In this document: piece by piece, positions 57 to 15,840 of the stretch
Numbering within the stretch: the first letter of the stretch is position 1
Layout: each line of letters begins with the position of its first letter
From: Bacteroidota bacterium
Lineage (GTDB): Bacteria > Bacteroidota > Ignavibacteria > Ignavibacteriales > SURF-24
Reading direction: 5' to 3'
NCBI GenBank assembly: GCA_030706145.1
Contig: JAUZPB010000031.1
Location: forward strand, 1 to 38,335
DNA: 38,335 nucleotides
The notes under the pieces: model-generated
The model's input: the letters and a program-made list of their open reading frames with translations, nothing else
What the model was told of the DNA's origin: nothing
Databases searched by the model: none
Made by a program: the position numbers and the translations under genes

Positions 57-613
57 TTTTTAAAGAACCTATGATTGACTATCTGGCCTAAATTCGCTGA
101 TGCAAAAAAAACTATTTTGCAGTCTCAGTTTTTCCCCATTTCTTTAATTGTCGTAAATTATTCGGGAAAATTAAATCAGGAAAAGATGCATTGGGAAAGC
201 TTTGCATAAATATTTAATTTGAATGTAATTATCTAATTTTATTGACATCTATATAATTTTCACAACTCATTTATTTATGTATCAACAGCATTTATGTAAA
301 ATTGGAACAGTTGTTCTTGGAAATATTTAATTATTTCCTTTATAGATCTGTCTGTATTGTTTTAATTCTATCAGATTAAATTCCTTATTATGCAGATTTA
401 ATAAAAATGCAGTTTTAATTCTAACTATTGTTATTTATTATACGTAGTGATAAAAGACACATCAATCTAAATTAGCTTTTGAAAATATTAAATTAGTTTA
501 CTGAATAAAAAGTATTGTTTTGAACATTTTTGGAGAAGAGTTAACACCTAATTCAAAAGTAGCTAGAAATAATACGTTACTCGAAAAAAAACTGAGGTAA
601 CTAGTAACATAAA
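57..613. other. AT-rich non-coding stretch between tRNA terminator and IS
   Basis: No convincing gene was found on either strand. The stretch is very AT-rich with many stops in all frames. A short open stretch near 505-600 (containing GEELTPNSK) lacks a good start and ribosome binding site. If the DNA right of the IS once joined this point, no coding sequence on this side continues it. Confidence 0.5.
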
Positions 614-618
614 TGTCA

Positions 619-695
619 GGGGCCATAAGTATTCCCCAGTTTTTCGGACTTTAGGGTCATAAGTAATCCCCAGGTTAGGGCCATAAGTATTCCCC
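619..695. repeat. Left-end IS21 multiple terminal repeats (three copies)
   Basis: Three direct 19-bp repeats close to RGGGYCATAAGTAWTCCCC lie at 619-637, 653-671 and 677-695. Inverted counterparts are at the right end. In the IS21 family such repeats are transposase (IstA) binding sites. Confidence 0.85.
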
Positions 696-798
696 ACCCA
701 TAGTTCAATAATTCAATTAAAAAAAGTACCATTCACTCTGTTAAATAATAAAATCTTTACATGCAGGGAAATGAATGGGATATAACAGAATTACAACT

Positions 799-2327
799 AT
801 GGACATAACAGAAATAATTAGACGTCGTAAAATGGGGCAATCTGTTTCATCAATCTCAAGATCACTTGACTTTGACAGAAAAACAATCAGAAAATACTTA
901 AAAGCCATTAAAAAAACATCCTGAGACAGCCCCCTCTGAAGTAATAAAATCTCTACTTTCACCTGAAGTGATGGGAAGACCAACAGAAAAGCAGGATATA
1001 CTCATTTCATTCAAAGATGAGATTTCTGAACTTGTAAATAAATCAAAAGACAAACTAAATCCAAAGAGTGCCTTTGAAGTCATCTGCCTTAAACACAATC
1101 TTACTGATAAGGTAAGCTATAGCAGCTTCAAAAGATTCGTACGGAAGCATCAAATTGTCAAATCCAATACTAACTCCACCTGCCGCATAGAGTCTGATCC
1201 TGGCAGCCAATGCCAGGTCGACTACTGCAAAGTAGGACTGATTTATGACAGTCCAACAGGAAAACGTAAATTAGTCTATGCCTTTATAGGAACCTTGTCT
1301 TACAGCAGGCATAAATTTGTTGAGTTTGTATTCTCACAGAACCAGAAGAGTTTTGTACAGTCTCATATCAATATGTTCAACTTCTTTCAGGGTTTACCAG
1401 TAACTCTAAAGCTGGATAACCTGAAAAGCGGAGTAGTAAAGCCTGATTTATATGATCCAAAGATCAATAAAGCTTATGCTGAAATGGCCGAACACTACGG
1501 ACTATTTCTTGACCCGTGCAGAGTTGCATCACCTAAGGATAAAGGCATTGTAGAGCGTGATGTACAGACAATAAGAGAAGAGTTCAGGAAAATGCTTGCC
1601 ATTAACCCAATGATCAGTCTCTCTGAAGCAAATGCACAGATAAAGAACTGGATCATAAATGTATATGGAAAAAGAAAGCACGGCACAACACAGGAAGAAC
1701 CATATAATACATTCAAACAAATTGAACAGCCTAAGTTATTATCGCTTCCTCTGGATGAATATTCAATCTCAGAGTGGAAAGAAGCTATAGTACATCCAGA
1801 CCATTACATTCAGGTAAATAAGAAATCCTACTCGATGCCTGAAGAGTTTATAGGAGAAAAAGTAATGGTCAGGCTACAGCATAACACAGTAAAGATTTAC
1901 TTTAAGGAAGAGCTTGTAAAGCAGCACATAGTCCCTATGGGCAGCCGTTCTACTGATATAAATGACTTCCCCGATGAGATGCATCACCGATTGGACACTG
2001 GGATGCCGTTTCATTTAAGACGACAAGCTCATGAAATTACTCCTGAATTTGAAAAGCTTATTGTAAAGATCTTATCTCCTAATGCTTATATCAATTTAAG
2101 ACGGGCTTGAGGCTATTGTTGCTCTGGCAAAGAATTATCCGGCCGAAATAATTGAACTTGCAAGCATAACTGCTCTTGAAAACTACACTACGGTTCATCC
2201 GAAACTGTTTAAGTCTATTGTAGAAAAACACCAGGAGATAATAACTCAGAGTCAAACCGGGCAGCTGTCCTTATCTCTTGAGACTGAAAGCTTTGTACGT
2301 GATATGAACTATTTTACTCACTCATAA
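799..2327 (+). pseudogene. istA: IS21-family transposase IstA, two frameshifts
   Basis: DDE-type transposase of the IS21 family. It starts at ATG 799 with a helix-turn-helix region (MDITEIIRRRKMG...). It then meets a seven-A run at 910-916 and stops at TGA 922. Reading resumes one base over as KHPETAPSEV and continues through the DDE core: Asp in QCQVDYCK, Asp in LKLDNLKSG and Glu in GIVERDVQ. A second frameshift near 2105 ends the main open stretch at 2110. The tail resumes as LEAIVALAKNYP and ends at TAA 2325-2327. istB follows 22 bases later. One extra A in the homopolymer explains the first lesion. Transcriptional slippage on A7 could rescue some product, but the second lesion has no slippery run. 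Sequencing error at one site is possible. Confidence 0.88.
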
Positions 2328-2349
2328 AAATAAAGGAAAACTAATCCCT

Positions 2350-3465
2350 ATGCCGAACTATTCAGAACTAATCTCAAAACTAAAGAACCTGAAACTCTCA
2401 GGTGCAGCTGAAACACTGGAACTAAGGATAATGGAAGCAGAACAAAACCAGCTCTCATACTCTGAACTACTTACAATGATCGTTACAGATGAATTCCAGG
2501 TAAGACGGAACAGAACCTTGCAGAGGCTTATTGTAAATGCCCGTATTGAATCAACAAAGACCTTAGAGAGTTTCGACCTTACGTTTAATCCTTCTATAAA
2601 TGCTGCACAGATTAGGGAACTATCACTTTGCCACTTTATTGAAAAAGCAGAGAATATATTTTTTATTGGACCAACAGGAACTGGTAATTATGGTAAGTTT
2701 TTGTTTATGGAAACAACATCGGAACTTTCTTAAAAATTACGCTAAAATCCAACTTTCTCCGGTATAATCCTTTCCATAATATTTTATAATAATAATTCCT
2801 CTCGTTTATTCTTTGTATTCGCTATATTTTTATAACCTTAAAAATCGCTAAAATTTCCATAATAATTTTGTAAACTACGACTTTCGCTTCTCAAATTTCC
2901 CATGATATCATGTATTTAAATAGTCAAAAGAGATTTTCTTCACAAATATTATGGCAAGAAAGAGAATCAAATCGGCAAGTATTTCAAGCATTTATCCCAA
3001 TTACTTTCCATAAACAAAAACTTACCATAATTACCATTATGGAAAGCTTTCCATAAAGGAAAAAGTCACCTGGCTAAAGCCATAGGACATTGTGCATGCA
3101 GGAAATATATGTCAGTCCAGTTCTTTAATTTCTATGACCTGTTTAGTCAACTCTCAAAGGCTGACCTTAGCAATAGACTAGATAATATGCTGAGATCCTT
3201 AATTAAGACTGATTTACTCATTATTGATGACTTTGCTTTTAAGAAAATAGATCAAAAATACGCCGAGTACTTCTATGCTGTTATTGACCAGAGATATGGC
3301 CTTAAGTCTACTATCATCACAAGCAATAGGTCCATTAGTGACTGGTCGGCTGTTTTTCCTGATCCTATAATGGCCAATGCTCTTATGGACAGGCTTTGCC
3401 ATAATGCACATCAAATAGTAATTAAGGGAGAATCTTATAGAAAGAAATTAAGACCTAAAAGTTAA
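2350..3465 (+). pseudogene. istB: IS21-family helper ATPase IstB, split by a mini-element
   Basis: AAA+ ATP-binding helper of IS21 transposition. The N-terminal part begins at ATG 2350 (MPNYSELISKLKNLKLSG), typical of IstB. It reaches the Walker A sequence GPTGTG at about 2668-2684, where the element at about 2685-3057 interrupts it. The second part resumes at 3058 with GKSHLAKAIGHC, so joining 2684 to 3059/3060 restores GPTGTGKSHLA in frame. Walker B is LLIIDDF near 3216-3236 and the sensor-like TSNR follows. The stop is at 3463-3465. The insertion removes the P-loop Lys/Ser from the N-terminal product, so no functional ATPase can be made. Confidence 0.9.
2685..3057. mobile_element. Non-autonomous palindrome-rich mini-element inside istB
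   Basis: About 373 bp interrupt istB between GGAACTGG and GGAAAAAGTC, with at most a 2-bp GG duplication. Inverted repeats of 32 bp (2682-2713 and 3005-3036) match perfectly. They are followed on the right by a perfect 20-bp palindrome at 3037-3056 (TTATGGAAAGCTTTCCATAA). The left end TTATGGTAAG differs by one base from the right end TTATGGAAAG, so the extreme ends also form short inverted repeats. The 9-mer TTTCCATAA or its complement occurs six times: 2705, 2771, 2854, 3005, 3037 and 3048. The interior has only a 20-codon reading frame (ATG 2951, MARKRIKSASIS) ending at 3013, perhaps the residue of a recombinase start. Family not recognised. Confidence 0.8.
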
Positions 3466-3522
3466 AACCTCTTGAATGTGATTTTTCTTTGTTTTATATA
3501 TCGCTAAATAATTAAAATGGGT

Positions 3523-3565
3523 GGGGAACACTTATGACCCTAACCTGGGGAATACTTTCGGCCCT
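3523..3565. repeat. Right-end IS21 terminal repeats (two copies)
   Basis: GGGGAACACTTATGACCCT at 3523-3541 and GGGGAATACTTTCGGCCCT at 3547-3565 are inverted relative to the left-end copies. They also contain a GTG at 3521 in frame with the downstream gene, which is therefore not a trustworthy start. Confidence 0.85.
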
Positions 3566-3610
3566 CGACATCCATGGTTTTTGGGAAAGTTTATTCCATT
3601 TAAATATAAA

Positions 3611-5524
3611 ATGGTTCCTCAAACATTAAATATTGAAGAGCACGGATTTATTAAAAGCAATTGGGCTTTTAGTTTCACATTATTACTATTTATAATTTCA
3701 ACAATAGGATTTTTCGGTTTTGTTGATCCAGGCGAAAAGAAGCAGGGGAGGATCATCATTGATGAAGGACATAGCAATTGGGAATGGACAACTGAAGAGT
3801 TTAACACAAAGTGTTATGGGGAAAAGTCTACATATAATTATTGGTCGTTAGCAGAATTCCTTAATCACTATTTTATAGTTGATAGAAATAAAGATAAATT
3901 GACAGATGAAACATTATGTAATTATGATATTCTTTTTATTAAGACACCTACAGAGCCTTTCTCTTTATCAGAAATTGAATCAATAAAAAGGTTCGTAAAA
4001 AGAGGTGGGGGACTTTTTATGGTAGGGGACCATACAAATGTCTTTGGAATCACAACAAATCTGAATCCCTTGGCTTCTGAGTTTGGAATTAAATTTCGAT
4101 ATGATGGGCAGTATGATATAAGTGGAGAGTTATCATTATTTAAGAAACCTTTACTTTTACCTCATCCCACAGTACAGTACATGCCTCCATTTATGTTTGC
4201 AACAGGATGTATGCTTGATGCTCCATTAATGGCAGAAAACTCAATAATAGGTTATGGGTTGAAATCAATCTACCTCGATTATTCACGTCCAAATTTCTTT
4301 CCGAAAGATGCTGCTAATACTGGAGAAATGGAATTTGGCATATTTGCCCAATCAGCAGGATTATTATATGGTAAAGGTAGAGTATTTTTATTTACAGATA
4401 GTACGGTGTTGTCTAACTTTTATATGTTTATGCCGGGCAAACCAGAGCTTATATTAGGCATTATGGATTGGTTAAATAGAAAAAATAGTGTAATGGCATC
4501 CTTAAGATTTATCTTTATTATTATTTTACTATGTTCTTTAATAATTCAGGTTATCTTTTTACGAAGAATGAAAAAACCAACTCCTCTTTTCCTTTCAGCT
4601 CTCTTAGGACTTATCATAGTACCAATTGTAATAAAAGGATATGAGCGCTTAAATTATTTTTCATATCCTGTATTAAAAGAGCATACAAAATTTGTAAAGG
4701 TAAGTTTTGAAGCAGAGCATTCCGATATTGAATTGCCAGTAGTTCATATAATTTCCAATTTTGAAAAGAGCTATCATACATTTTATGTTTGGTTGCAGCG
4801 AGTAGGAATAGTCCCATATTTAATGAATTCATATGAAGGTGCGCTTAAAGAAGGGAATGCAGTTGTTGTTATCAATCCATCAAAATCATTTAGTGTCGAT
4901 GAGGTGTCAAAGACAAAAATATTTTTGAAGCAGGGGGGTAAACTCTTGTTAATAGATAATCCATCACTAAATAATTATGCAGTGGCAAATGAATTATTGT
5001 CAAGGCTAGGGGTCCCGTTGCGGTTAAATAGTAATCTTGCTCAAGAAGTATCAATATTTAAAAGTAAAAATGATTCTCTTAAGATTAGTGCGCAATCAGC
5101 CGGCTATATTAGCGGAGGAAAACAAATATTGTTTGCAAGAACAAAAAATATTCATTATTCAGAATTGGAATCGGATGGTAGAATAGATGGAATTAAAGGT
5201 GTTGAAAAAACAAAATTGAATATTGCGGAAATTCAAAAAGAACAGAACATTTTAATGTTGGCAGATCCTGATTACGGTGTAAAGATCAGAAAATTTCTAA
5301 ATGAAAAAAGGAATAAAGCTCAGCACTTAAGTATTGATACTTTAAGCATAAGAACAGTAATGTCAAAATATCAGATTGGGAAAGGGGAGATAGTATTACT
5401 TGCAAACTCTAATTTGTTTACCGACAAAGAGATGGGGAATACATCAACAAGACCAAGTAAGAATCAATTGAACATCTCTAAATTGGAATATTGGCTGTTC
5501 AATGAGATACTAAAATTAAAGTAA
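3611..5524 (+). CDS. Membrane protein with two GIFT/DUF4350-like domains, possibly 5'-truncated by the IS
   Basis: From ATG 3611 this gives about 637 residues. The frame is open back through the IS end, and residues before the ATG (PWFLGKFIPFKYK) look coding, so the true start may have been lost. A membrane segment lies near residues 18-40. A soluble domain follows with the pattern DILFIKTPTEPFSLSEIESIKRF...GGGLFMVGD, typical of DUF4350/GIFT-like folds (related to GldG-type and IFT52 modules). Two membrane segments sit mid-protein (LRFIFIIILLCSLIIQ and LFLSALLGLIIVPIVI). A second domain of the same type follows (VVVINPSKSF...KQGGKLLLIDNPS). Such proteins usually accompany ABC or envelope systems, but the substrate here is unknown. 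No Shine-Dalgarno precedes ATG 3611. It lies upstream of the export cluster on the same strand. Confidence 0.7.
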   Translation: MVPQTLNIEEHGFIKSNWAFSFTLLLFIISTIGFFGFVDPGEKKQGRIIIDEGHSNWEWTTEEFNTKCYGEKSTYNYWSLAEFLNHYFIVDRNKDKLTDETLCNYDILFIKTPTEPFSLSEIESIKRFVKRGGGLFMVGDHTNVFGITTNLNPLASEFGIKFRYDGQYDISGELSLFKKPLLLPHPTVQYMPPFMFATGCMLDAPLMAENSIIGYGLKSIYLDYSRPNFFPKDAANTGEMEFGIFAQSAGLLYGKGRVFLFTDSTVLSNFYMFMPGKPELILGIMDWLNRKNSVMASLRFIFIIILLCSLIIQVIFLRRMKKPTPLFLSALLGLIIVPIVIKGYERLNYFSYPVLKEHTKFVKVSFEAEHSDIELPVVHIISNFEKSYHTFYVWLQRVGIVPYLMNSYEGALKEGNAVVVINPSKSFSVDEVSKTKIFLKQGGKLLLIDNPSLNNYAVANELLSRLGVPLRLNSNLAQEVSIFKSKNDSLKISAQSAGYISGGKQILFARTKNIHYSELESDGRIDGIKGVEKTKLNIAEIQKEQNILMLADPDYGVKIRKFLNEKRNKAQHLSIDTLSIRTVMSKYQIGKGEIVLLANSNLFTDKEMGNTSTRPSKNQLNISKLEYWLFNEILKLK

Positions 5525-5641
5525 TAAAGTTAAAATAATTATCTTTTTATTTTATGAGCAAACGATGTGCAGGATTGGTCCATCCTAGACAATATTTAAG
5601 AAAAATGGGCACTTCAGGCATTTACGTAACTTAAATTATCA

Positions 5642-5748
5642 CCGTTTGCTGAATTGATTTATTCGATAAATAATCAAAAACGGAGGAGAGGACTAATATC
5701 GAAAAGCTTCAACACTCAATATTTGTTTTACGTTTAACAAAAATATTG
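5642..5748 (+). promoter_or_regulatory. Two consecutive hairpins in the leader of the cysteine-rich gene
   Basis: The first hairpin closes with CCGTTT (5642-5647) and AAACGG (5678-5683), with an inner TGATTTAT...ATAAATAATCA stem. The second pairs CAATATTTGTT (5717-5727) with AACAAAAATATTG (5736-5748), with a small bulge. Its last base is the first G of the GGAG ribosome binding site (5748-5751). A purine-rich GGAGGAGAGG at 5682-5691 has no start codon at the right distance. The layout suggests structural control of translation, but this is inferred from base pairing alone. Confidence 0.4.
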
Positions 5749-5758
5749 GAGAATGACA

Positions 5759-6475
5759 ATGCAAACTAAACTGTGCCTTATCTTGATAATGATGTTTTGT
5801 TGTACATGTCCTGATTTTGCTTTATCGAAAGGTGAAATGAAAAATTCACCATTATTTAAAGCTTCGCTTAAAAGCAGTATAGCAAAACTTGAGGGCTATA
5901 TTGCAGTTCAATCTTGCAGCTCTAATAGTTCTGATGCGGCAGCAACTTCCTCAGCGAAATGTGTTCAGCCACAAGCATTACATACTCAGATTAGTACTTG
6001 TGAACCTTCGTACTGTGGTAGTTCCGAGACTTGTCTTTTAACTGCCTGTTATGGAAGTACCTGTTATTCGACTTGCGAAAGTACCTGCAATAGTCAGCAG
6101 AGTACATGTGCAAGTACATGTGCAAGTACATGTGCAAGTACATGTTCCGGTACTACTTGTGGTACAGCTAGCTACTGCGTAGCATGTAATGCTCCATATG
6201 TGGAGGGGACAGTCTATCATGCAAATCAAGGAGAAACTGCTTGGTCAAGCGACTGGAATTCGAGTACTTCTTATAGATATGTTGATGATTGGCAAGGGCA
6301 TCAAACTAATTTTGGAATTACTGGTTACTATTTTATGCAGTGTGGAACAGCTGCGTTAAACCTACATGCATTTGGTGATTGCTATGGACTTAACTATCTT
6401 GGGGTAGCTGCTAAACCACATCAAGGCAATATTATCATAAAGGTTGACATTCGTTGTCTGAAGGAAACTACTTAA
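5759..6475 (+). CDS. Secreted cysteine-rich protein with STCA repeats
   Basis: Unrecognised protein of about 238 residues. ATG 5759 is preferred over ATG 5753 because GGAG at 5748-5751 is seven bases from it but only one base from the earlier ATG. A hydrophobic signal-like N-terminus (LCLILIMMFCC) ends near ALSKG. From about 5990 to 6190 the protein is packed with cysteines in STC, SYC and TAC units, including STCA tandem repeats encoded by a 12-bp DNA repeat. The C-terminal third has few Cys and many aromatic residues (WSSDWNSSTSYRYVDDWQGHQ). About 19 Cys lie outside the signal region, which suggests disulfide cross-linking, metal binding or a modified peptide substrate. It heads a run of envelope/export genes, so it is a candidate cargo. 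No maturation enzyme is visible. Confidence 0.8.
   Translation: MQTKLCLILIMMFCCTCPDFALSKGEMKNSPLFKASLKSSIAKLEGYIAVQSCSSNSSDAAATSSAKCVQPQALHTQISTCEPSYCGSSETCLLTACYGSTCYSTCESTCNSQQSTCASTCASTCASTCSGTTCGTASYCVACNAPYVEGTVYHANQGETAWSSDWNSSTSYRYVDDWQGHQTNFGITGYYFMQCGTAALNLHAFGDCYGLNYLGVAAKPHQGNIIIKVDIRCLKETT
6101..6146 (+). repeat. 12-bp tandem repeat encoding STCA
   Basis: AGTACATGTGCA repeats at 6101-6112, 6113-6124 and 6125-6136, with a fourth partial copy to 6146. Codons are AGT ACA TGT GCA (Ser-Thr-Cys-Ala). Near-identity at the DNA level points to recent expansion and likely length variation between strains. Confidence 0.95.
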
Positions 6476-6500
6476 AATAGTCTGAAGTGCAAAAATGATT

Positions 6501-6530
6501 AGTCTGGTACTGAAATCTCGGTACCAGATT
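6501..6530 (+). terminator. Hairpin between the cysteine-rich gene and the lipoprotein gene
   Basis: AGTCTGGTAC (6501-6510) pairs with GTACCAGATT (6521-6530) over 10 bp with one G-U pair. An AT-rich tail follows without a long T-run. It probably acts as a partial terminator or mRNA stabiliser, letting the first gene be made in excess over the downstream ones. Confidence 0.55.
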
Positions 6531-6554
6531 GAATTTTATAAAAAAAGGAAAATT

Positions 6555-7508
6555 ATGTTAAAGTTAAAAGAGAGATTAAAAGTAATGGTTTTTCTGGTCT
6601 TGTTTACTTTAACTTCTTGCAGTGATGATTTTGATGAATTGCAAATTATAAATAAACCCATTTCCTTTATTGACAAAAACACGATAGTCTATCAATCTGC
6701 GGAAGGGCATTTGGGATGGCGAATAAAACTTCTGTCGTCTGATCTTACCCAAAGCTATATGATTACTTCCGGACCTGCTGATTTTGTACCGGAGTGGTCC
6801 CCTGACAAGAAGTGGATAGTATTTTCACGTATGTTTAATCCCAATAATGTCTCGCGCATCTGGAAGATGAGATATGACGGTGAAGAAAAAAAAGCTCTTA
6901 CTCCAATCGATAAAGATTGCAACGATCCCAAAATATCGCCCGATGGTAAAACTATTATTTTTAATGTTGTTATTAACAACAGAAAACAGATTTGTGCGAT
7001 AGATACAAATGGGAATAATTGGAGACAGCTGACAAACGATTCTCTTAATCCTTTTAAAGATAGGACAATCTTCGCATGGGCCGACTTTTCACCTGACGGA
7101 AAAAGAATTATTCTGACTTATTATAAAGCTGGTACAGATCAAGAAGGTCTCGGAATTTTAAATATTGAGACAAATGAATTAACACATATTTCGCAAGCGG
7201 ACCAGTATAGTCCATATTCTGCAAGATGGTCTCCAGTAAGAGATGAGGTAGTATTTGTCGGAACTATTCCTAATGGAACAGGTCCCAAGCTCTTCAGAAT
7301 GAATATTGATGGTTCTGATATTAAAATGCTGACAGATGCATGGGGAAGTTTTGCTCCAGATTGGTCTTCTGATGGATCAATGATAGCCTATACAAGTACA
7401 AACGGTCTTGACGACTATACCCGTATCTGGACAATGAACCGTGATGGCTCAAACAAAAAACTAGTTATTGAGATTAAGGAGGCACATGTTACAGATCCCT
7501 CGTGGTAA
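6555..7508 (+). CDS. TolB-like beta-propeller lipoprotein
   Basis: About 317 residues from ATG 6555, chosen because AAGGAAAATT precedes it and the protein then starts with a classical lipoprotein signal (basic start, VMVFLVLFTLTSC, Cys in a LTSC lipobox). The upstream in-frame ATG at 6495 lies inside the hairpin and adds no sensible sequence. The mature part has repeated PD40/TolB-type blades: PEWSPDKKWIVFSR, PKISPDGKTIIF, ADFSPDGKRIIL, ARWSPVRDEVVF and PDWSSDGSMIAYTS. Such propellers mediate protein contacts at the envelope. The position behind a Cys-rich secreted protein and before an outer-membrane barrel suggests a surface or periplasmic partner. No enzymatic motif is visible. Confidence 0.85.
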   Translation: MLKLKERLKVMVFLVLFTLTSCSDDFDELQIINKPISFIDKNTIVYQSAEGHLGWRIKLLSSDLTQSYMITSGPADFVPEWSPDKKWIVFSRMFNPNNVSRIWKMRYDGEEKKALTPIDKDCNDPKISPDGKTIIFNVVINNRKQICAIDTNGNNWRQLTNDSLNPFKDRTIFAWADFSPDGKRIILTYYKAGTDQEGLGILNIETNELTHISQADQYSPYSARWSPVRDEVVFVGTIPNGTGPKLFRMNIDGSDIKMLTDAWGSFAPDWSSDGSMIAYTSTNGLDDYTRIWTMNRDGSNKKLVIEIKEAHVTDPSW

Positions 7509-7585
7509 GAAATATTTCAATAAACAGCTTCTGAGATGAGAACATTATTTGTCCTAATAAAAATTACATTTCAAATAGGTATTAT

Positions 7586-8257
7586 ATGTGTGGAAAAATA
7601 TTTCTATTACTAATATGCCTTCAAGCTGCTTCAATTTTAGTTTGTGGTCAGCAGGATAGCATTATGCAAAAGCAGAACTTGTCAAAGGGGAAGTTTACTG
7701 TCGGAATTTCACTGGGGTATGGAAGGAGTGACAGGGACTTTGTTCTGCCGGGATGTATTGTCGAATACAAGTTATCAGATGACTGGAAGCTGCTGGCAGA
7801 AGCTGAGTTCTTCCGGATAAAATATGAAGAATCATATTACTATTTTCAATATAAAAACGCTGAATACCACGGCTATTATGGCCATTTGTGGGATGACTTG
7901 TCTTTTCAGTTAGCTGTTCAGCGCCGTATATCCAGGCAATCCTATGTCGGACTTTCCTTCAGCCTAGAAAAGATATATGTAAAGGAAGAAAGCCCTAAAC
8001 AGGAAGACTATAGACTTCCTTTTATTGTTGATCCAGTTTCAGACCAGGTTTATTATTACAACTATACAATCGAAGATAGGCTTACCGTTCCGACTGTGGG
8101 ATTATTCGGCACAATCGATTTGCTTGAAAATGCAGCAATAATTCCCTTCGTACTTACTGAATATAAGTTATCATTTGTTGGGGAAAAATATGGAACTACT
8201 CCGTTGCATATAAGGCATATATTTTCAATCTCATTGGGCGTAAAATATAGGTTTTAA
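7586..8257 (+). CDS. Small outer-membrane beta-barrel protein
   Basis: 223 residues with a signal peptide (MCGKIFLLLICLQAASILVCGQ). Alternating amphipathic strands follow (FTVGISLGYGRS, WKLLAEAEFF, LSFQLAVQRR, SYVGLSFSLEKIY). The C-terminus is SLGVKYRF, where a terminal Phe after an aromatic/hydrophobic pattern is the usual outer-membrane insertion signal. The size suggests an 8- to 10-stranded barrel. It follows the lipoprotein gene by 77 bases and is probably cotranscribed with it. Function unknown; no similarity beyond the barrel class could be recognised. Confidence 0.75.
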   Translation: MCGKIFLLLICLQAASILVCGQQDSIMQKQNLSKGKFTVGISLGYGRSDRDFVLPGCIVEYKLSDDWKLLAEAEFFRIKYEESYYYFQYKNAEYHGYYGHLWDDLSFQLAVQRRISRQSYVGLSFSLEKIYVKEESPKQEDYRLPFIVDPVSDQVYYYNYTIEDRLTVPTVGLFGTIDLLENAAIIPFVLTEYKLSFVGEKYGTTPLHIRHIFSISLGVKYRF

Positions 8258-8359
8258 GACGCATATTTGTTTGTTTGATCAACTCATTTATCCTTATTAA
8301 GAAATTCTTTTAATACATGTAAAAATAAAGATATCGTTTAATAAAGGTTGAATAATCAT

Positions 8360-9834
8360 ATGGTTGTCAAAAGAAATATTCAATTTTTAATTATTCAATT
8401 AGGCATTTAACAACAATATTTGGTAATTCGTTCGGACAATGTATTTCTCTTTACGATGCAATAAAATATGCACTTGTTAATAATTTAACTATTATGTACA
8501 ATGCAAAACAAAATTACCTTTCCTCATACACACAGAAACAAATAGTAGAATTAAATTATCAACCGAAAATTAATGCGAATTTAGGATTTACTAGAAGTAT
8601 TACCAAAACGAAGATTCCAAACGCTATATGCGAGGAATACTATGACCAGATAATAAAATTCCAACAGATTTATCCATGTTTTAATATTGAGCAAGTATTT
8701 TTAGCTCCCTTAGGTGGCAAATTAATAATGACAGGGGGAATCCAAACTTATGCGATAGGTATTTCTGAGTTTAGTTTTCAAACCCAACCTTCTTTTGGTA
8801 TTGCATTTCAGCAACCGCTCTCTTCAAGCGCAATTGATGCAGGACATGCGGATATAAAACAAGCTAATATGTCATTTCAACAAGCAACTATGGAATATCA
8901 ATTAATATGTGAACAGTTAGTCCTTTCTGTTATTGATGCTTATTTTCAACTCTGACAGGCAAACCAAAATGTAGAACAAATTGCTAAAGAAGAAGAATCC
9001 ACCAAACGAATTTTGGAAATAGCTGAAATCAAATTAAAACAGGGAAATATTGCAGAATTTGAGGTCCTCAACCTTCGTGTTCAGCATAGGCTTGCTAACG
9101 ATAACCTCATTCAAAATCAAAACAATTTTAGGTCACAGATAATAACTTTTATGAGAATTCTAGGGACAAAACCAGATTCAACAATTCTACCTGAACAAAA
9201 TATCCGGATTGATTCTATTGATTTTTCATTTAATGAAGCGTTTGAAAGAGCAATAAAAAATAGGTGCGAGTTAAAGCAGGCTGAAATATCAATTGCGAAA
9301 GCAAAATTAAATAAAGACGAAATATCAGGTTCGTTTTCTCCAATCTTTCAATTTAGTGTATTATATAATCGAAGTTCAAATATCGAAAAAAATCTGATTC
9401 AATCATTGAATTTGCCTAATTATGGATTGAATTTATCGGGGAGCATATCGATTCCGCTATTTGATGGAGGTAGAATATCATCAGGTGTTGAGATTGCTGA
9501 ACGCAATATTTTAGTCCAAGAAAATAATTATCAGCAGTTAAAAGAAGATATTTGGGCTGATTTAGAGATTCGCTATAGAACATTAGTCTTATTTATAAAA
9601 AGACTAGGAGCATTACAATTAAGCCTTGAAACGGCAGCAGAAGCTCTTAACATTGCAGAGCTTCGTTTTCGTTCGGGAGAGATAACATCTAGCGAAATCG
9701 AAAATGTTAGAAATAGATATACTCTAGCGAAAAATTCTCTTGATAATGCAAAGATTTCCTGTGTGATACAAAGAGCAGGTTTAGCAAAAGCTATGGGGGA
9801 GTTTTTCCCTTGGGTTGAAAGTTTAAGGAAATAA
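8360..9834 (+). pseudogene. TolC-like outer-membrane efflux protein, broken twice
   Basis: Outer-membrane channel of the TolC/OEP family, the exit duct of a tripartite exporter. The probable start ATG 8360 encodes a signal peptide (MVVKRNIQFLIIQLGI) but reaches TAA at 8408. The family sequence continues in another frame as GQCISLYDAIKYALVNNLTI, so a frameshift lies near 8400-8408. A second lesion is the in-frame TGA at 8953-8955, in DAYFQL-stop-QANQNVEQ; one base change from TTA (Leu) would explain it. Open stretches are 8494-8955 and 9013-9834. The second carries the repeat half with SGSISIPLFDGGRISSGVEIAE and coiled-coil helices. The downstream adaptor begins two bases after its stop. TGA readthrough cannot be excluded, but two separate lesions favour decay. 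Confidence 0.85.
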
Positions 9835-9836
9835 AA

Positions 9837-10943
9837 ATGAAAATTACTATTTTTATTGGTTTAGTTTTTTTAATCTTAAGTTGTCTAGGGTATTTTTACT
9901 TTTTTAGAGAAGAGCAAAGTATTCAACCGTTAATGGTAAGAACCGTAAATGTTAAATATGGGGCTTTTACTGCTAGTACTTTAGGACGTGGCAAAATAGT
10001 TGTAAGAAAAAAAGAACAGCTTGTATCTTTAGTTGATGGGGTTGTAATCGATAGGGGGACATCTATTGGGCAATTTATTTCAGAAGGAGAAATAATAGCT
10101 TTTGTAAGATTAAATGGACCCGAATTACGACAAAAGAAGCGAGAGTTTGAATATGCTCTTCTCGATCTTAAAATATTAAATGAACAAGTTTTACATTCTG
10201 AAGAACTCTATAAAGCGAAAGCGATTTCAGAAAGAGAGTTGAAAGAACTTAAAATACGCAAATATAAGCAGGAAAAATATGTCCAAAATCTTCGCGAAGA
10301 AATCAGTGACAAACCTATTAAGTGTAGTTTTAGTGGAATGGTTATTGAAAAGTCATTTCAAGATGGAGATAATATTCGTGCAGGAACCCCTTTGGCTTTA
10401 ATAGCAGATACCTCTTCCTTTGCGGTAGAAATACTAGTCGATCAACACCAGATTCCATTCATTAGACTAGACCAATATGTACAATATGAATCAAAGATTT
10501 TTAATGGTTATCGATGGGGGAAGGTTGTGGAGATAGCAAGATCTGCAGTAGACATGAAGTCCAATCAGTATGGAACCATGAGCTCCGAGCCAGAATTTAC
10601 CATATTAGCAAGTATAAAAACAAAATTGTATGATAATATTCTAATTGGTGCGCAAGTGGAATCTCGTTTTATCATGGAGGAAAAAGAAGGTGTTTTAAGT
10701 ATTCCGATTGAAGCTATTATATATCGCAATGATACAACATTGGTCTTTGTTACATCAAAAGGAAGAGCTAGAAAAAAAGTTGTAAAGACTGGCCTTACAA
10801 ATGATAGGTCAATTGAACTTATTGATGGTTTAACAAAATGGGATTCTGTGATAACAACAGGCAATCTAGATGTCGAAGATGGGAGTTATATAATAAGTAA
10901 CCAAATTGGACAAGTAAATGATAAGAGCAACCTTCCTAATTAG
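9837..10943 (+). CDS. Periplasmic adaptor (membrane fusion) protein, HlyD/MacA type
   Basis: 368 residues. An N-terminal membrane anchor (ITIFIGLVFLILSCLGYFYFF) is followed by a biotinyl-lipoyl half (VVRKKEQLVSLVDGVVIDRGTSIGQFISEGEIIAFV). A short coiled-coil hairpin spans about 100-155, then the second lipoyl half (IKCSFSGMVIEKSFQDGDNIRAGTPLALIAD) and beta-barrel and membrane-proximal domains (ESRFIMEEKEGVLSIPIEAI). In MacAB-type systems this protein links the inner-membrane ABC permease to TolC. AAGGAA precedes ATG 9837. It follows the TolC pseudogene by two bases and overlaps the permease gene by 26 bases, a tight operon. The gene itself is intact. Confidence 0.88.
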   Translation: MKITIFIGLVFLILSCLGYFYFFREEQSIQPLMVRTVNVKYGAFTASTLGRGKIVVRKKEQLVSLVDGVVIDRGTSIGQFISEGEIIAFVRLNGPELRQKKREFEYALLDLKILNEQVLHSEELYKAKAISERELKELKIRKYKQEKYVQNLREEISDKPIKCSFSGMVIEKSFQDGDNIRAGTPLALIADTSSFAVEILVDQHQIPFIRLDQYVQYESKIFNGYRWGKVVEIARSAVDMKSNQYGTMSSEPEFTILASIKTKLYDNILIGAQVESRFIMEEKEGVLSIPIEAIIYRNDTTLVFVTSKGRARKKVVKTGLTNDRSIELIDGLTKWDSVITTGNLDVEDGSYIISNQIGQVNDKSNLPN

Positions 10944-12129
10944 CTTAATGGCCTTACGTTCCAATGTTTTACGTTCAATACTTACAATGAGCGGAATTAT
11001 CATTGGAGTTGCAGCAGTAATTACAGTAATATCTATTGGAAAGGGACAAGAAAATAAGATTGAAGCTCAAATTCATCAAATGGGTGCAGATGTATTTTGG
11101 GTTGGAATGTTTTTCCCGTCCACTCCTGGGAGTATTATCCCCCTGAATGAATTTAATAGATCTAATTTGTTGAAATCTATATCGTTGACTTCCAGAGATG
11201 CAGAATTTATTCCAAAATGTTGTACTGCCGTTCGGTGGGCTGCACCTTTAATCATGACTAATTCCCCAGGAATATTTAAAAATAAATTAGTTGGAATTAA
11301 TATTATAGCTACAATTCCTGAATATAGCAAAATTCGAGCTCTTTCAATAGTGTCAGGCAGATATATAACAGATGAGGATTTAAAGCTGTTATTAGATGTA
11401 TGTGCAATTGAAGAGAACATAGAAACAAAATATTGTATGCCACAAAATTGCTTTATTTATATAGGCTCACGAAAATTTAGAATTGTAGGAGTGATAAAAA
11501 GTAATGAACCTAAATTAACATTGAACAGATTAATCACTGTACATATGCCTCTTACGGTAGCTCAGATAAAGATGTTAGGCTCCCGCACAATTCACTCAAT
11601 CTGTTGTGAATCGAGGGAGGGTTTATTGGAAAAAGCCAAGAGACAGGTCGAAACCTTGCTATACTCTCGAAATAATGGGATGATGAAATTTGAAGTACAT
11701 AGTGTTCGTGATGTTTTTGCGACCAAGGAAACTATGACTAGAACGGCTACAATGGTTACGGCAGGGATAGGAATGCTTTCTTTATTCGTCGGTGGTATCG
11801 GTATTATGAATATTCTACTTGCGTCAGTGTTTGAAAGAATTAAAGAAATCGGTATCCGTCGCTCTGTCGGTGCAAGAAAACGAGATATTGTTCTCCAACT
11901 ATTGTTTGAGTCTGTTATATTTAGCGTGATAGGAGGAATATTTGGAATTGTTTTAGGTATGATAACTACAAAATTAATAAGTATTGTAATAAGCCTTCCA
12001 GCTGTGCTTTCGCTAGAAGGAGCAATTGTTGGCATTGTTGCCTCTACCGTAACTGGATTAATATTTGGAATTTATCCTGCAATAAAGGCAGTAAAACTAG
12101 ACCCCATTGAGTCTTTAAGATATGAATAG
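10918..12129 (+). CDS. MacB/FtsX-type ABC transporter permease without ATPase domain
   Basis: 403 residues. The first membrane helix follows ALRSNVLRSILTMSGIIIGVAAVITVISIGKG, the usual MacB_PCD start. A periplasmic domain spans about 50-265, and three C-terminal helices carry the conserved cytoplasmic loop ERIKEIGIRRSVGARKRDI. The end, AIKAVKLDPIESLRYE, is typical. Full MacB proteins carry a nucleotide-binding domain, but here none is fused and no separate ATPase gene lies between 3571 and 12633. It must use an ATPase encoded elsewhere, or the system is dead. It starts inside the adaptor gene (26-base overlap), so translation is probably coupled. Confidence 0.88.
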   Translation: MIRATFLISLMALRSNVLRSILTMSGIIIGVAAVITVISIGKGQENKIEAQIHQMGADVFWVGMFFPSTPGSIIPLNEFNRSNLLKSISLTSRDAEFIPKCCTAVRWAAPLIMTNSPGIFKNKLVGINIIATIPEYSKIRALSIVSGRYITDEDLKLLLDVCAIEENIETKYCMPQNCFIYIGSRKFRIVGVIKSNEPKLTLNRLITVHMPLTVAQIKMLGSRTIHSICCESREGLLEKAKRQVETLLYSRNNGMMKFEVHSVRDVFATKETMTRTATMVTAGIGMLSLFVGGIGIMNILLASVFERIKEIGIRRSVGARKRDIVLQLLFESVIFSVIGGIFGIVLGMITTKLISIVISLPAVLSLEGAIVGIVASTVTGLIFGIYPAIKAVKLDPIESLRYE

Positions 12130-13566: not shown

Positions 13567-15840
13567 ATGAAAAAATTGTTCTATTTCGCTTTTTTTGTTC
13601 TGTTTTCTTTTGTAAATGTATTTGCAAAGATAAACAGCTATGCAAGTGTAACAAAGGTTGATAAATATGTGTCTGTTGACTTGCCTGCACCCTACAATGA
13701 AACAGCATATGCAGGAACCTTTTTAGGTAGTGTTGGGACGGCAACTGCAAGGTTTTATTGTATTGACCTTACTCATGAGCTCTCCTACAATTCACAGTAC
13801 CAGGACGTAAGCTCAACAAGTTCAAAGATTACCTACATTCTCAACAACTATTATCCATATAAACAGCTTCCTTATACAAATTCTTTATCTGAATCATATG
13901 AGGCTGCGGCCATTCAGCTTGCAATATGGAATATTACAGATGGATTAAAAATATCTTCATGCTCTCCAAATACTTCAAATAAAGATGCACAAAGTATTAT
14001 TAACAGGGCACTTGCAATTGTACAAGATGCAGAAAATAATGCCGGTACAATTCAGCCATTTAAAACACTGCTTATTAATATGTCCTCTCAGTCTTTTAAG
14101 GCAGGTTCGCCTGTACAATTTTTTGTAGAAACTTACAATGAAGTTGGCGCTCCTATTGCAGGCGCACAGGTGAAGCTTACAGTTAATGAAGGCACACTCT
14201 CATCAAGCACAGTTACTACTAATTCCGCTGGAGTAGCTGGACCTGTTACATTAAATGCAGGACCAAATAATGCAACAACTATTACAGCTACTGCTACTGT
14301 ATCAATTCCAGGCGGAACACAGTATTATAATGTTAAAGATCCAAATGGAAAACAAAAACTTGTAATTGCAACTCCGGTTTTGGATACTAAAACAGTCAGC
14401 TCATCGGTTAGTTGGTATAATACTGTTTCTCTTGCAGTCTCAAAGACTTCTGGCACAATTAAAGTTAAAGATGGTGATAAGGTTGACTATGAAATAACAG
14501 TAAAAAATACAAGCCAGGTTAATGCTACAGGTGTACAGGTCTCCGATGTTTTACCTGCTGTATTAAAATATGTATCTACCGATGGCAGTTATGACCCTAA
14601 GACAGGAATTTGGAGTGTTGGTTCACTTGCTCCAAATGAATCAAAGAAAATAAAAGTCTCAGTTAATGCTGCTCTTGGAGCACCTGAGGGAGCAATATTT
14701 AATCTTGGTACGGCTGCAGATTATAATTTGTTTGTACTTAATGATTTAATCCAGCCCTCATCTGATACTCAAGGTAAACTCGCAGTTGCGCATGATGCCG
14801 AACTTGCAAACTATAGTGTAGGTGATGTACTGCCATCAAACTCTGGTAACGTGCTTGTGGTAGGCAGAAAATTGACATACAAAAGCGGTCGAGTCTATGG
14901 TGATGTAGCCTTTGGGTCTTTCATCGACACTACACATTGGAATTTGTCAGATGGAAAGATAACTCAAAGCTCACCTATCGATTTTAATGCAGCTTCGCTT
15001 TACCTTAATAATCTTTCTTCACAACTGGCTGTTCTTGAGCAGAATGGCACAAGTAAATTTGAATACGGGCAAATATCCTTAACAGGTACAAACCAAGATA
15101 TAAACAGGTTTAATATAAGTGCAAGTGACCTGTCAAAGTGTAATGATTTTCTTATTGATGTCCCTGCAAATTCCACAGTTTTAATTAATGTCTCAGGAAA
15201 TAATATTGACTGGAAAGGTGGTTTTGCATTAAAAGGCGCAACAAACTCTAATGTACTTATAAATTTCTTTGAAGCTTCAGCCCTTAAGATTTCCTCTATA
15301 GAAGTTAAAGCTTCAATACTTGCACCTAAAGCTACGCTTGACTTTCCATCTGGGCTCATAAGCGGGCAGGTAATTGCCTATAATGTTAAAGGTTCAGGTC
15401 AATTTAATAATGTTAAATTTATTGGAAAGATAGCTCTTGAAATGACCATTACAAATATAGCTGAATTAGTTGCTGTTGATCAACCTATTGAAATCTGCCC
15501 GTCTCTAAAGGCAATGGCTCAGGTAAGTTCGCCTTTTAACTTAACAGGCATAAATAAACACACTTCGGCTATCCCGGATAAAATGGATCTTATGCAGAAC
15601 TATCCAAATCCTTTTAATCCTTCAACATCAATAAGATTTGAAATTGCAAAGAGTGGATATTATACATTAAAGATCTTTAACGCACTTGGAAAGGAAATTA
15701 CAACTTTAGCTCAAAGAGAATTTACACCTGGTACATACAACGTTAATTTTAATGCCTCTTCATTAAGCTCAGGCGTCTATATGTATCAGCTGCTTGGAAA
15801 TAACGTGAACATTACAAGAAAAATGATATTGTCCAAGTAA
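13567..15840 (+). CDS. T9SS-secreted surface protein with Cys-Gln thioester domain, Ig-like domains and choice-of-anchor A domain
   Basis: 757 residues; AGGAG at 13554-13558 fixes the start. A signal peptide spans 1-20. Residues about 21-165 look like a thioester (TQXA) domain: Cys65 in RFYCIDL and Gln117 in AAIQLAIWNITDG are at the positions that form the internal thioester in Gram-positive adhesins, with the YILNNYYP segment between. Residues about 168-270 resemble an invasin/Big-1 Ig domain (GAPIAGAQVKLTVNEG...TNSAGVAG). Residues about 290-382 are DUF11-like (VDYEITVKNTSQVNATGVQVSDVLP). Residues about 376-620 resemble choice-of-anchor A (FNLGTAADYNLFVLND...GDVAFGS). Residues 673-757 are the T9SS type A sorting domain (QNYPNPFNPST...). 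Probable role: covalent or strong surface adhesion. The thioester is inferred from motif positions. Confidence 0.85.
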   Translation: MKKLFYFAFFVLFSFVNVFAKINSYASVTKVDKYVSVDLPAPYNETAYAGTFLGSVGTATARFYCIDLTHELSYNSQYQDVSSTSSKITYILNNYYPYKQLPYTNSLSESYEAAAIQLAIWNITDGLKISSCSPNTSNKDAQSIINRALAIVQDAENNAGTIQPFKTLLINMSSQSFKAGSPVQFFVETYNEVGAPIAGAQVKLTVNEGTLSSSTVTTNSAGVAGPVTLNAGPNNATTITATATVSIPGGTQYYNVKDPNGKQKLVIATPVLDTKTVSSSVSWYNTVSLAVSKTSGTIKVKDGDKVDYEITVKNTSQVNATGVQVSDVLPAVLKYVSTDGSYDPKTGIWSVGSLAPNESKKIKVSVNAALGAPEGAIFNLGTAADYNLFVLNDLIQPSSDTQGKLAVAHDAELANYSVGDVLPSNSGNVLVVGRKLTYKSGRVYGDVAFGSFIDTTHWNLSDGKITQSSPIDFNAASLYLNNLSSQLAVLEQNGTSKFEYGQISLTGTNQDINRFNISASDLSKCNDFLIDVPANSTVLINVSGNNIDWKGGFALKGATNSNVLINFFEASALKISSIEVKASILAPKATLDFPSGLISGQVIAYNVKGSGQFNNVKFIGKIALEMTITNIAELVAVDQPIEICPSLKAMAQVSSPFNLTGINKHTSAIPDKMDLMQNYPNPFNPSTSIRFEIAKSGYYTLKIFNALGKEITTLAQREFTPGTYNVNFNASSLSSGVYMYQLLGNNVNITRKMILSK

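Follow-up and report, generated by a model that had tools for sequence, protein, structure and literature searches.

Does the cysteine-rich (Cys-rich) secreted protein encoded in the window, by which the whole analysed stretch of 38,335 nucleotides is meant, leave the cell through the export genes that lie downstream of it? An earlier note on this DNA had proposed that it is the cargo of the MacB-type system and that a propeller lipoprotein and a barrel protein are its surface partners. No description of the locus was found in the literature. Few proteins are known to be substrates of pumps of the MacB type. A locus in which a candidate cargo is encoded next to a channel, adaptor and permease of its own, and in which duplicated cargo genes have swapped tails that the lipoprotein partner follows, makes substrate recognition by a MacB pump directly testable; it may also point to a modular system of surface or secreted proteins in Bacteroidota that have received little study. 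The reading favoured here, held with about even confidence, is that of a patchily inherited cassette which makes and exports modular Cys-rich proteins by way of Sec, oxidation, leader-dependent release of the MacB/TolC type and handling of the tail by the propeller.

Gene content and condition of the locus

The following features were assigned to the locus and to the insertion element abutting it.

613-3570 (limits approximate), + strand: IS21-type insertion element, IS21 transposase match above cutoff
968-2110, + strand: istA-like transposase in the IS21-type element
2350-3465, + strand: broken istB-like ORFs in the IS21-type element
3521-5524, + strand: GldG/DUF4350-like membrane protein (GldGb), DUF4350, ABC_transp_aux and GIFT above Pfam cutoffs
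5753-6475, + strand: Cys-rich secreted protein, 240 aa, with signal peptide and homologues
about 5753-5824, + strand: signal peptide of the Cys-rich protein
about 5825-5902, + strand: conserved mature leader of the Cys-rich protein, KGEMKxSPLFKASLKSSIAKLEG
about 6002-6187, + strand: Cys/TC-repeat region of the Cys-rich protein
6101-6145, + strand: 12-bp tandem array (AGTACATGTGCA) coding for STCA repeats, found by TRF
about 6188-6472, + strand: C-terminal domain of the Cys-rich protein, type I
6495-7508, + strand: PD40 beta-propeller lipoprotein, type 1, PD40 above cutoff, lipobox-like LTSC
7586-8257, + strand: small secreted barrel-like outer-membrane protein, collinear match to a G085 gene
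8340-9834, + strand: TolC-family gene, broken, OEP matches in 8494-8955 and 9013-9834
9837-10943, + strand: periplasmic adaptor (HlyD/MacA-like), HlyD_3, HlyD_D23 and TIGR01730 above cutoffs
10918-12129, + strand: MacB/FtsX-type permease with 4 TM and no ATPase domain, MacB_PCD and FtsX above cutoffs

The genes downstream of the Cys-rich gene share its strand, with short or overlapping junctions, and are as the earlier note had described them (propeller lipoprotein, barrel, TolC, adaptor and MacB-type permease), the TolC gene being broken. That note had the members right and left unstated both the upstream gene GldGb, which belongs to the set, and the absence of an ATPase domain or adjacent ATPase gene. 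The Cys-rich, propeller, barrel, adaptor and permease ORFs are all open. The adaptor scored 101.4 bits against TIGR01730 (cutoff 94.9) and is 41% identical to the adaptors of the relatives G085 and G105, while the permease scored 82.7 bits for Pfam MacB_PCD and 76 bits for FtsX and is 44% identical to that of G085. The barrel-like protein had zero Pfam matches and aligned collinearly over its full length with the product of the G085 barrel gene in the corresponding position (17% identity, E 6e-5).

Two members are damaged. The TolC gene is interrupted by an in-frame stop at 8953-8955 and its first part has no in-frame start or signal peptide. Its two halves show 40% and 50% identity to the TolC of G085, which is intact, and relatives do carry unbroken copies. 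Reading TGA as a sense codon at this stop was rejected, since two other ORFs of the window end in TGA and the in-frame start and signal are missing as well. GldGb lacks the multi-TM N-terminal part of ~320 residues, about half of the protein, that is found in relatives. Homology begins near 3668, and from residue ~50 the protein is 47-53% identical to those of G085, G105 and G129. The opening 17 codons of ORF 3521 recur in inverted orientation at 613-697, so the start of this ORF falls inside the IS21 end, and the missing N-terminal half is absent from the rest of the window. With this damage to TolC and to the GldG-like gene, the export machine of the window is probably non-functional; provided that the lesions do not stem from errors of assembly, this copy of the locus is probably inactive or in decay. 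The earlier note had only hinted at this degenerate state, through the broken TolC. Further downstream, at 13567-15840, lies a gene for a secreted protein with repeats and a C-terminal sorting sequence of the T9SS type, which seems unrelated to the locus.

Distribution and synteny

Homologues of the Cys-rich protein were sought by a six-frame search in 294 genomes sampled from the class and were found in five, namely the window genome, G085, G105, G129 and G246. The relatives' contigs are metagenome-assembled genomes named Bacteroidetes bacterium (FK_Sedi_A, FK_Sedi_B and YP1) and Ignavibacteriales bacterium LacPavin. G085, G105 and G129 belong to one genus in a family other than that of the window, and G246 to a third family; independent replication is thus limited, as the carriers span only three genera and three of the five genomes come from one of them. 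An alignment search of 391 class genomes yielded no further true relative, and one of 395 phylum genomes yielded, besides the window itself, only matches in TC composition. Single-protein scans of genome contigs and plasmids gave zero matches, and the alignment-based scan of contigs gave five loci. Weak TC-repeat matches in G365, G507 and G584 were not homologues on reading. The gene set is rare and patchily inherited in a group of environmental Bacteroidota.

The intact full set was found in G085, in the order two GldG-like genes, Cys-rich 1, two propellers, barrel, OMP_b-brl_2, Cys-rich 2, propeller, long GldG-like (GldGb), TolC (544 aa), adaptor and permease, beyond which lie unrelated housekeeping genes with RuvB first; a strain with intact TolC, which the earlier note had suggested seeking, therefore exists. 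G105 and G129 carry GldGb, Cys-rich, propeller, TolC, adaptor and permease in the order of the window, the permease of G129 being split where a group II intron lies at contig ends. This intron (RF00029, RF02001) was located at L103 6254-7358 (- strand, contig 52 of G129) and at the end of L010, where the permease breaks. The locus of G246 is partial, with propeller, Cys-rich and propeller genes and a TolC remnant adjoining transposases, and on contig 66 of G129 there is a further module of type I, degraded, in which a remnant of the leader persists. Cassettes are duplicated in G085 and G105.

A gene for a LuxR-type regulator lies upstream of the locus in G105, on contig 66 of G129 and, frameshifted, in G085. 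These genes of the three relatives (L041 2092-2745, L012 4985-5623 and L014 6156-6635) were recognised by reading as response-regulator-like from an HTH end and a receiver-like start. The second Cys-rich gene of G105 (L018 6897-7699) is frameshifted within the TC repeat, the kind of lesion that slippage in a short tandem array would be expected to cause. Between the two G105 cassettes (L011 13721-16583, - strand) lie a possible caspase/gingipain-like protein, suggested by HGG...GACSTG by eye only and with zero Pfam matches, and a large barrel-like protein.

A propeller gene was found beside every copy of the Cys-rich gene, and TolC or its remnant in every carrier. The Cys-rich gene always adjoins other members of the set, and the export genes are not kept among unrelated neighbours elsewhere, either of which separations the earlier note had named as fatal to its reading. 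GldGb was detected in four of the 294 genomes, every one a Cys-rich carrier (hypergeometric P 1.6e-8, or 2.6e-4 by genus). Permease orthologues occur in carriers only, scoring 827 bits in G085, 785 in the window and 636 in G105, with a split copy in G129; non-orthologous permeases in the 294 genomes scored at most 287 bits.

A modular Cys-rich protein with matching propellers

The earlier description of a secreted protein with about 19 Cys and STCA repeats was borne out. The protein at 5753-6475 begins with a hydrophobic signal and contains 23 Cys in total, 19 of them after residue 19, and the array behind the STCA repeats comprises 3.8 copies of 12 bp with 100% match by TRF. Cys makes up 0.9% of the remaining ORFs of the window (binomial P for the enrichment about 2e-13). 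There are 10 TC dipeptides, and most Cys of the mature part sit in TC repeats. Zero matches were obtained in Pfam, NCBIfam and PDB, and AlphaFold on the entire protein gave an unusable model (mean pLDDT 36.5).

What the earlier note had missed is the modularity of the candidate cargo. As comparison across its copies shows, the Cys-rich protein is modular, with a near-constant N-terminal leader (consensus of the mature part RPSGEVKxSPLYQQSLxQSIAxLxGK), a TC-repeat region and unrelated types of C-terminal domain. The two paralogues of G085 share 96% identity over the first 82 residues, while their tails are no more alike than by chance (27%, z 1.9). G129 has a tail with 63% identity to that of the second paralogue (z 29), and the tail of the window matches only that of the first (42%, z 7.5). 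Type I thus comprises the window and G085_1, and type II comprises G085_2, G129, G105 twice and, distantly, G246. The propellers fall into two clades that parallel the tail types, with support of 100/99 for the split in a tree of long branches and few rows whose inner order is unsure; the propeller of the window groups with G085_prop1 and G085_11783, again at 100/99. The barrel gene is also among the type I neighbours. Modelled alone with AlphaFold, the type II tail is predicted to be a beta-sandwich (mean pLDDT 92). Foldseek returned no significant match against PDB (best E 0.13) and no assignment against BFVD, where the best match was an uncharacterised phage protein (E 0.009).

These data were weighed against two explanations in which the Cys-rich protein has another role. 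It might be a subunit of a coat, or an adhesin, that the propeller lipoprotein and the barrel hold in place, with the MacB/TolC genes serving assembly or stress release rather than its export. Such a surface structure would suit the propeller, OMP_b-brl_2, DUF4249-like and TonB-receptor genes common to the loci, and the modelled beta-sandwich would be typical of binding domains; the restriction of permease orthologues to the neighbourhood of the Cys-rich gene is, however, unexpected for a general stress pump, and we consider this explanation unlikely.

Less probable still is polymorphic antagonism. Polymorphic toxin loci combine a conserved N-terminal trafficking part with a variable C-terminal domain and a type-matched gene directly downstream. 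The locus resembles them in the constant N-terminus and exchangeable C-terminus of its cargo, in the type-matched gene directly downstream and in the duplicated cassettes of G085 and G105, so that the leader and TC region might be for trafficking, the C-terminal domain an antibacterial effector and the propeller lipoprotein its matching immunity protein. It differs in its MacB/TolC machinery and in a partner that is a beta-propeller lipoprotein, which at 340 residues is large for an immunity protein; arrays of lone propeller immunity genes were not seen. No toxin domain was recognised, with no toxin-family match in Pfam, NCBIfam or PDB, and the predicted plain beta-sandwich of the type II tail has no evident active site.

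The pump, its presumed ATPase and the proposed route

MacAB-TolC releases heat-stable enterotoxin II, a Sec-exported and disulfide-bonded polypeptide, from the periplasm of E. coli (PMC8277102). The locus is alike in its Sec-exported Cys-rich polypeptide and in having an adaptor of the MacA type, a permease with MacB_PCD and FtsX domains and 4 TM, and a TolC-type channel, broken in the window and intact in G085. It differs in its dedicated propeller lipoprotein, barrel and GldG-like protein, in being cargo-specific, in a larger and modular cargo, and in a permease with no ATP-binding subunit fused to it or encoded with it, no ATPase gene being present in any of the loci. The last feature was at first taken as a peculiarity of the locus, an idea dropped since 22 of the 26 nearest non-locus permeases likewise have no adjacent ABC signature (fetched flank at most 1.5 kb; L077-L102), so that MacB/FtsX permeases lacking a neighbouring ATPase gene are common in the class. 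Each of four carriers tested encodes 8-13 LolD/MacB-type ATPases elsewhere in its genome. Given these ATPases and the permeases without a neighbouring one, a shared ATPase acting in trans is plausible for the permease of the locus.

GldG and archaeal DUF4350 membrane proteins have been linked to predicted secretion or membrane remodelling (PMC5898192). GldGb shares with them an extracytoplasmic DUF4350/ABC_transp_aux domain in a membrane protein, but in the window it scored 28.4 bits against TIGR03521, short of the equivalog cutoff of 389.85; in relatives it has an extra 8-TM N-terminal part, and the locus has no GldA-type ATPase gene.

In the favoured export cassette, the Sec signal would take the Cys-rich protein across the inner membrane, and its Cys/TC-repeat region would be oxidised in the periplasm to form disulfides. 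The N-terminal part of the mature protein may serve as the leader recognised by the shared machinery. TolC, the adaptor and the MacB-like permease, presumably energised by an ATPase in trans, would then move the protein across the outer membrane, where the propeller lipoprotein, with the barrel in type I loci, would bind the variable C-terminal domain and hold or finish the protein.

Conserved synteny, carrier-exclusive GldGb and permease, modular tails and the tail-matched propeller type argue for this export cassette. The proposal of a Cys-rich cargo with propeller and barrel partners is strengthened by the matching of propeller type to tail type and by the precedent of enterotoxin II, first exported by Sec and then released by MacAB; that the Cys-rich protein is the export substrate is nonetheless our inference. 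Counting against export are the absence of an ATPase from the locus and the size of the mature Cys-rich proteins, roughly 20-25 kDa, which exceeds the upper size of about 10 kDa quoted for MacB cargoes (PMC8277102), and the adaptor and permease could be exporting something else. A more specific and more tentative idea is an export-and-display system, in which a constant leader and a Cys-repeat stalk would carry exchangeable beta-sandwich domains, each with its own propeller, through a MacB/TolC-type conduit powered in trans, as a Sec-dependent counterpart of polymorphic secretion systems.

Improbable readings: metal handling and thioether cross-linking

Metal handling, with the Cys repeats binding thiophilic metals and the adaptor, TolC and permease forming a metal efflux pump, appears quite improbable. 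The abundance of Cys and the weak similarity of the adaptor to CusB/CzcB-type adaptors would fit it, but the pump belongs to the MacB type and not to RND, a His/Met-rich metal site is missing, the locus holds no metal regulator (the upstream regulator of relatives being LuxR-type), and the variable tails and conserved leader are left unexplained.

Least credible of all is a RiPP precursor in which lanthipeptide or radical SAM enzymes would cross-link the Thr/Cys repeats. The TC repeats do resemble those of lanthipeptide-type precursors in G147, and one Cys-rich member on its own matches TIGR04117, the model for CxxxC targets of radical SAM enzymes, at 2e-4. This reading is disfavoured because LanB (PF04738), detected in G147, is absent from the five carrier genomes and none of the loci showed a modifying enzyme. 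In the carriers, all five of which were searched, TIGR04117 (cutoff 50 bits) had no match at 0.01, nor had it any in control genomes, and the Sec signal implies an unfolded, unmodified chain.

The match in G147 was itself rejected as a homologue of the Cys-rich protein, the likeness being in composition only. These class I lanthipeptide precursors (G147, L033) share TCxxTC repeats of very similar spacing, but unlike the Cys-rich protein they have a cytoplasmic leader (KLKLEDIKVESFVTSL), LanB/LanC neighbours, a Hint-like tail and no Sec signal. They belong to a lanthipeptide-type cluster on G147:C3 (L033 9405-11764, - strand, and 180-9239, + strand), in which LanB was confirmed by PF04738 and C39-type transporter, HlyD-like and LanC-like neighbours were recognised by reading. 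The cluster encodes three tandem Cys-rich precursors, one with TC repeats, whose C-terminal ends are formed by a Hint/intein-like domain (CFLEDTLVNTS...VTENHPFY...VHNKT), which is unusual as a design for precursors.
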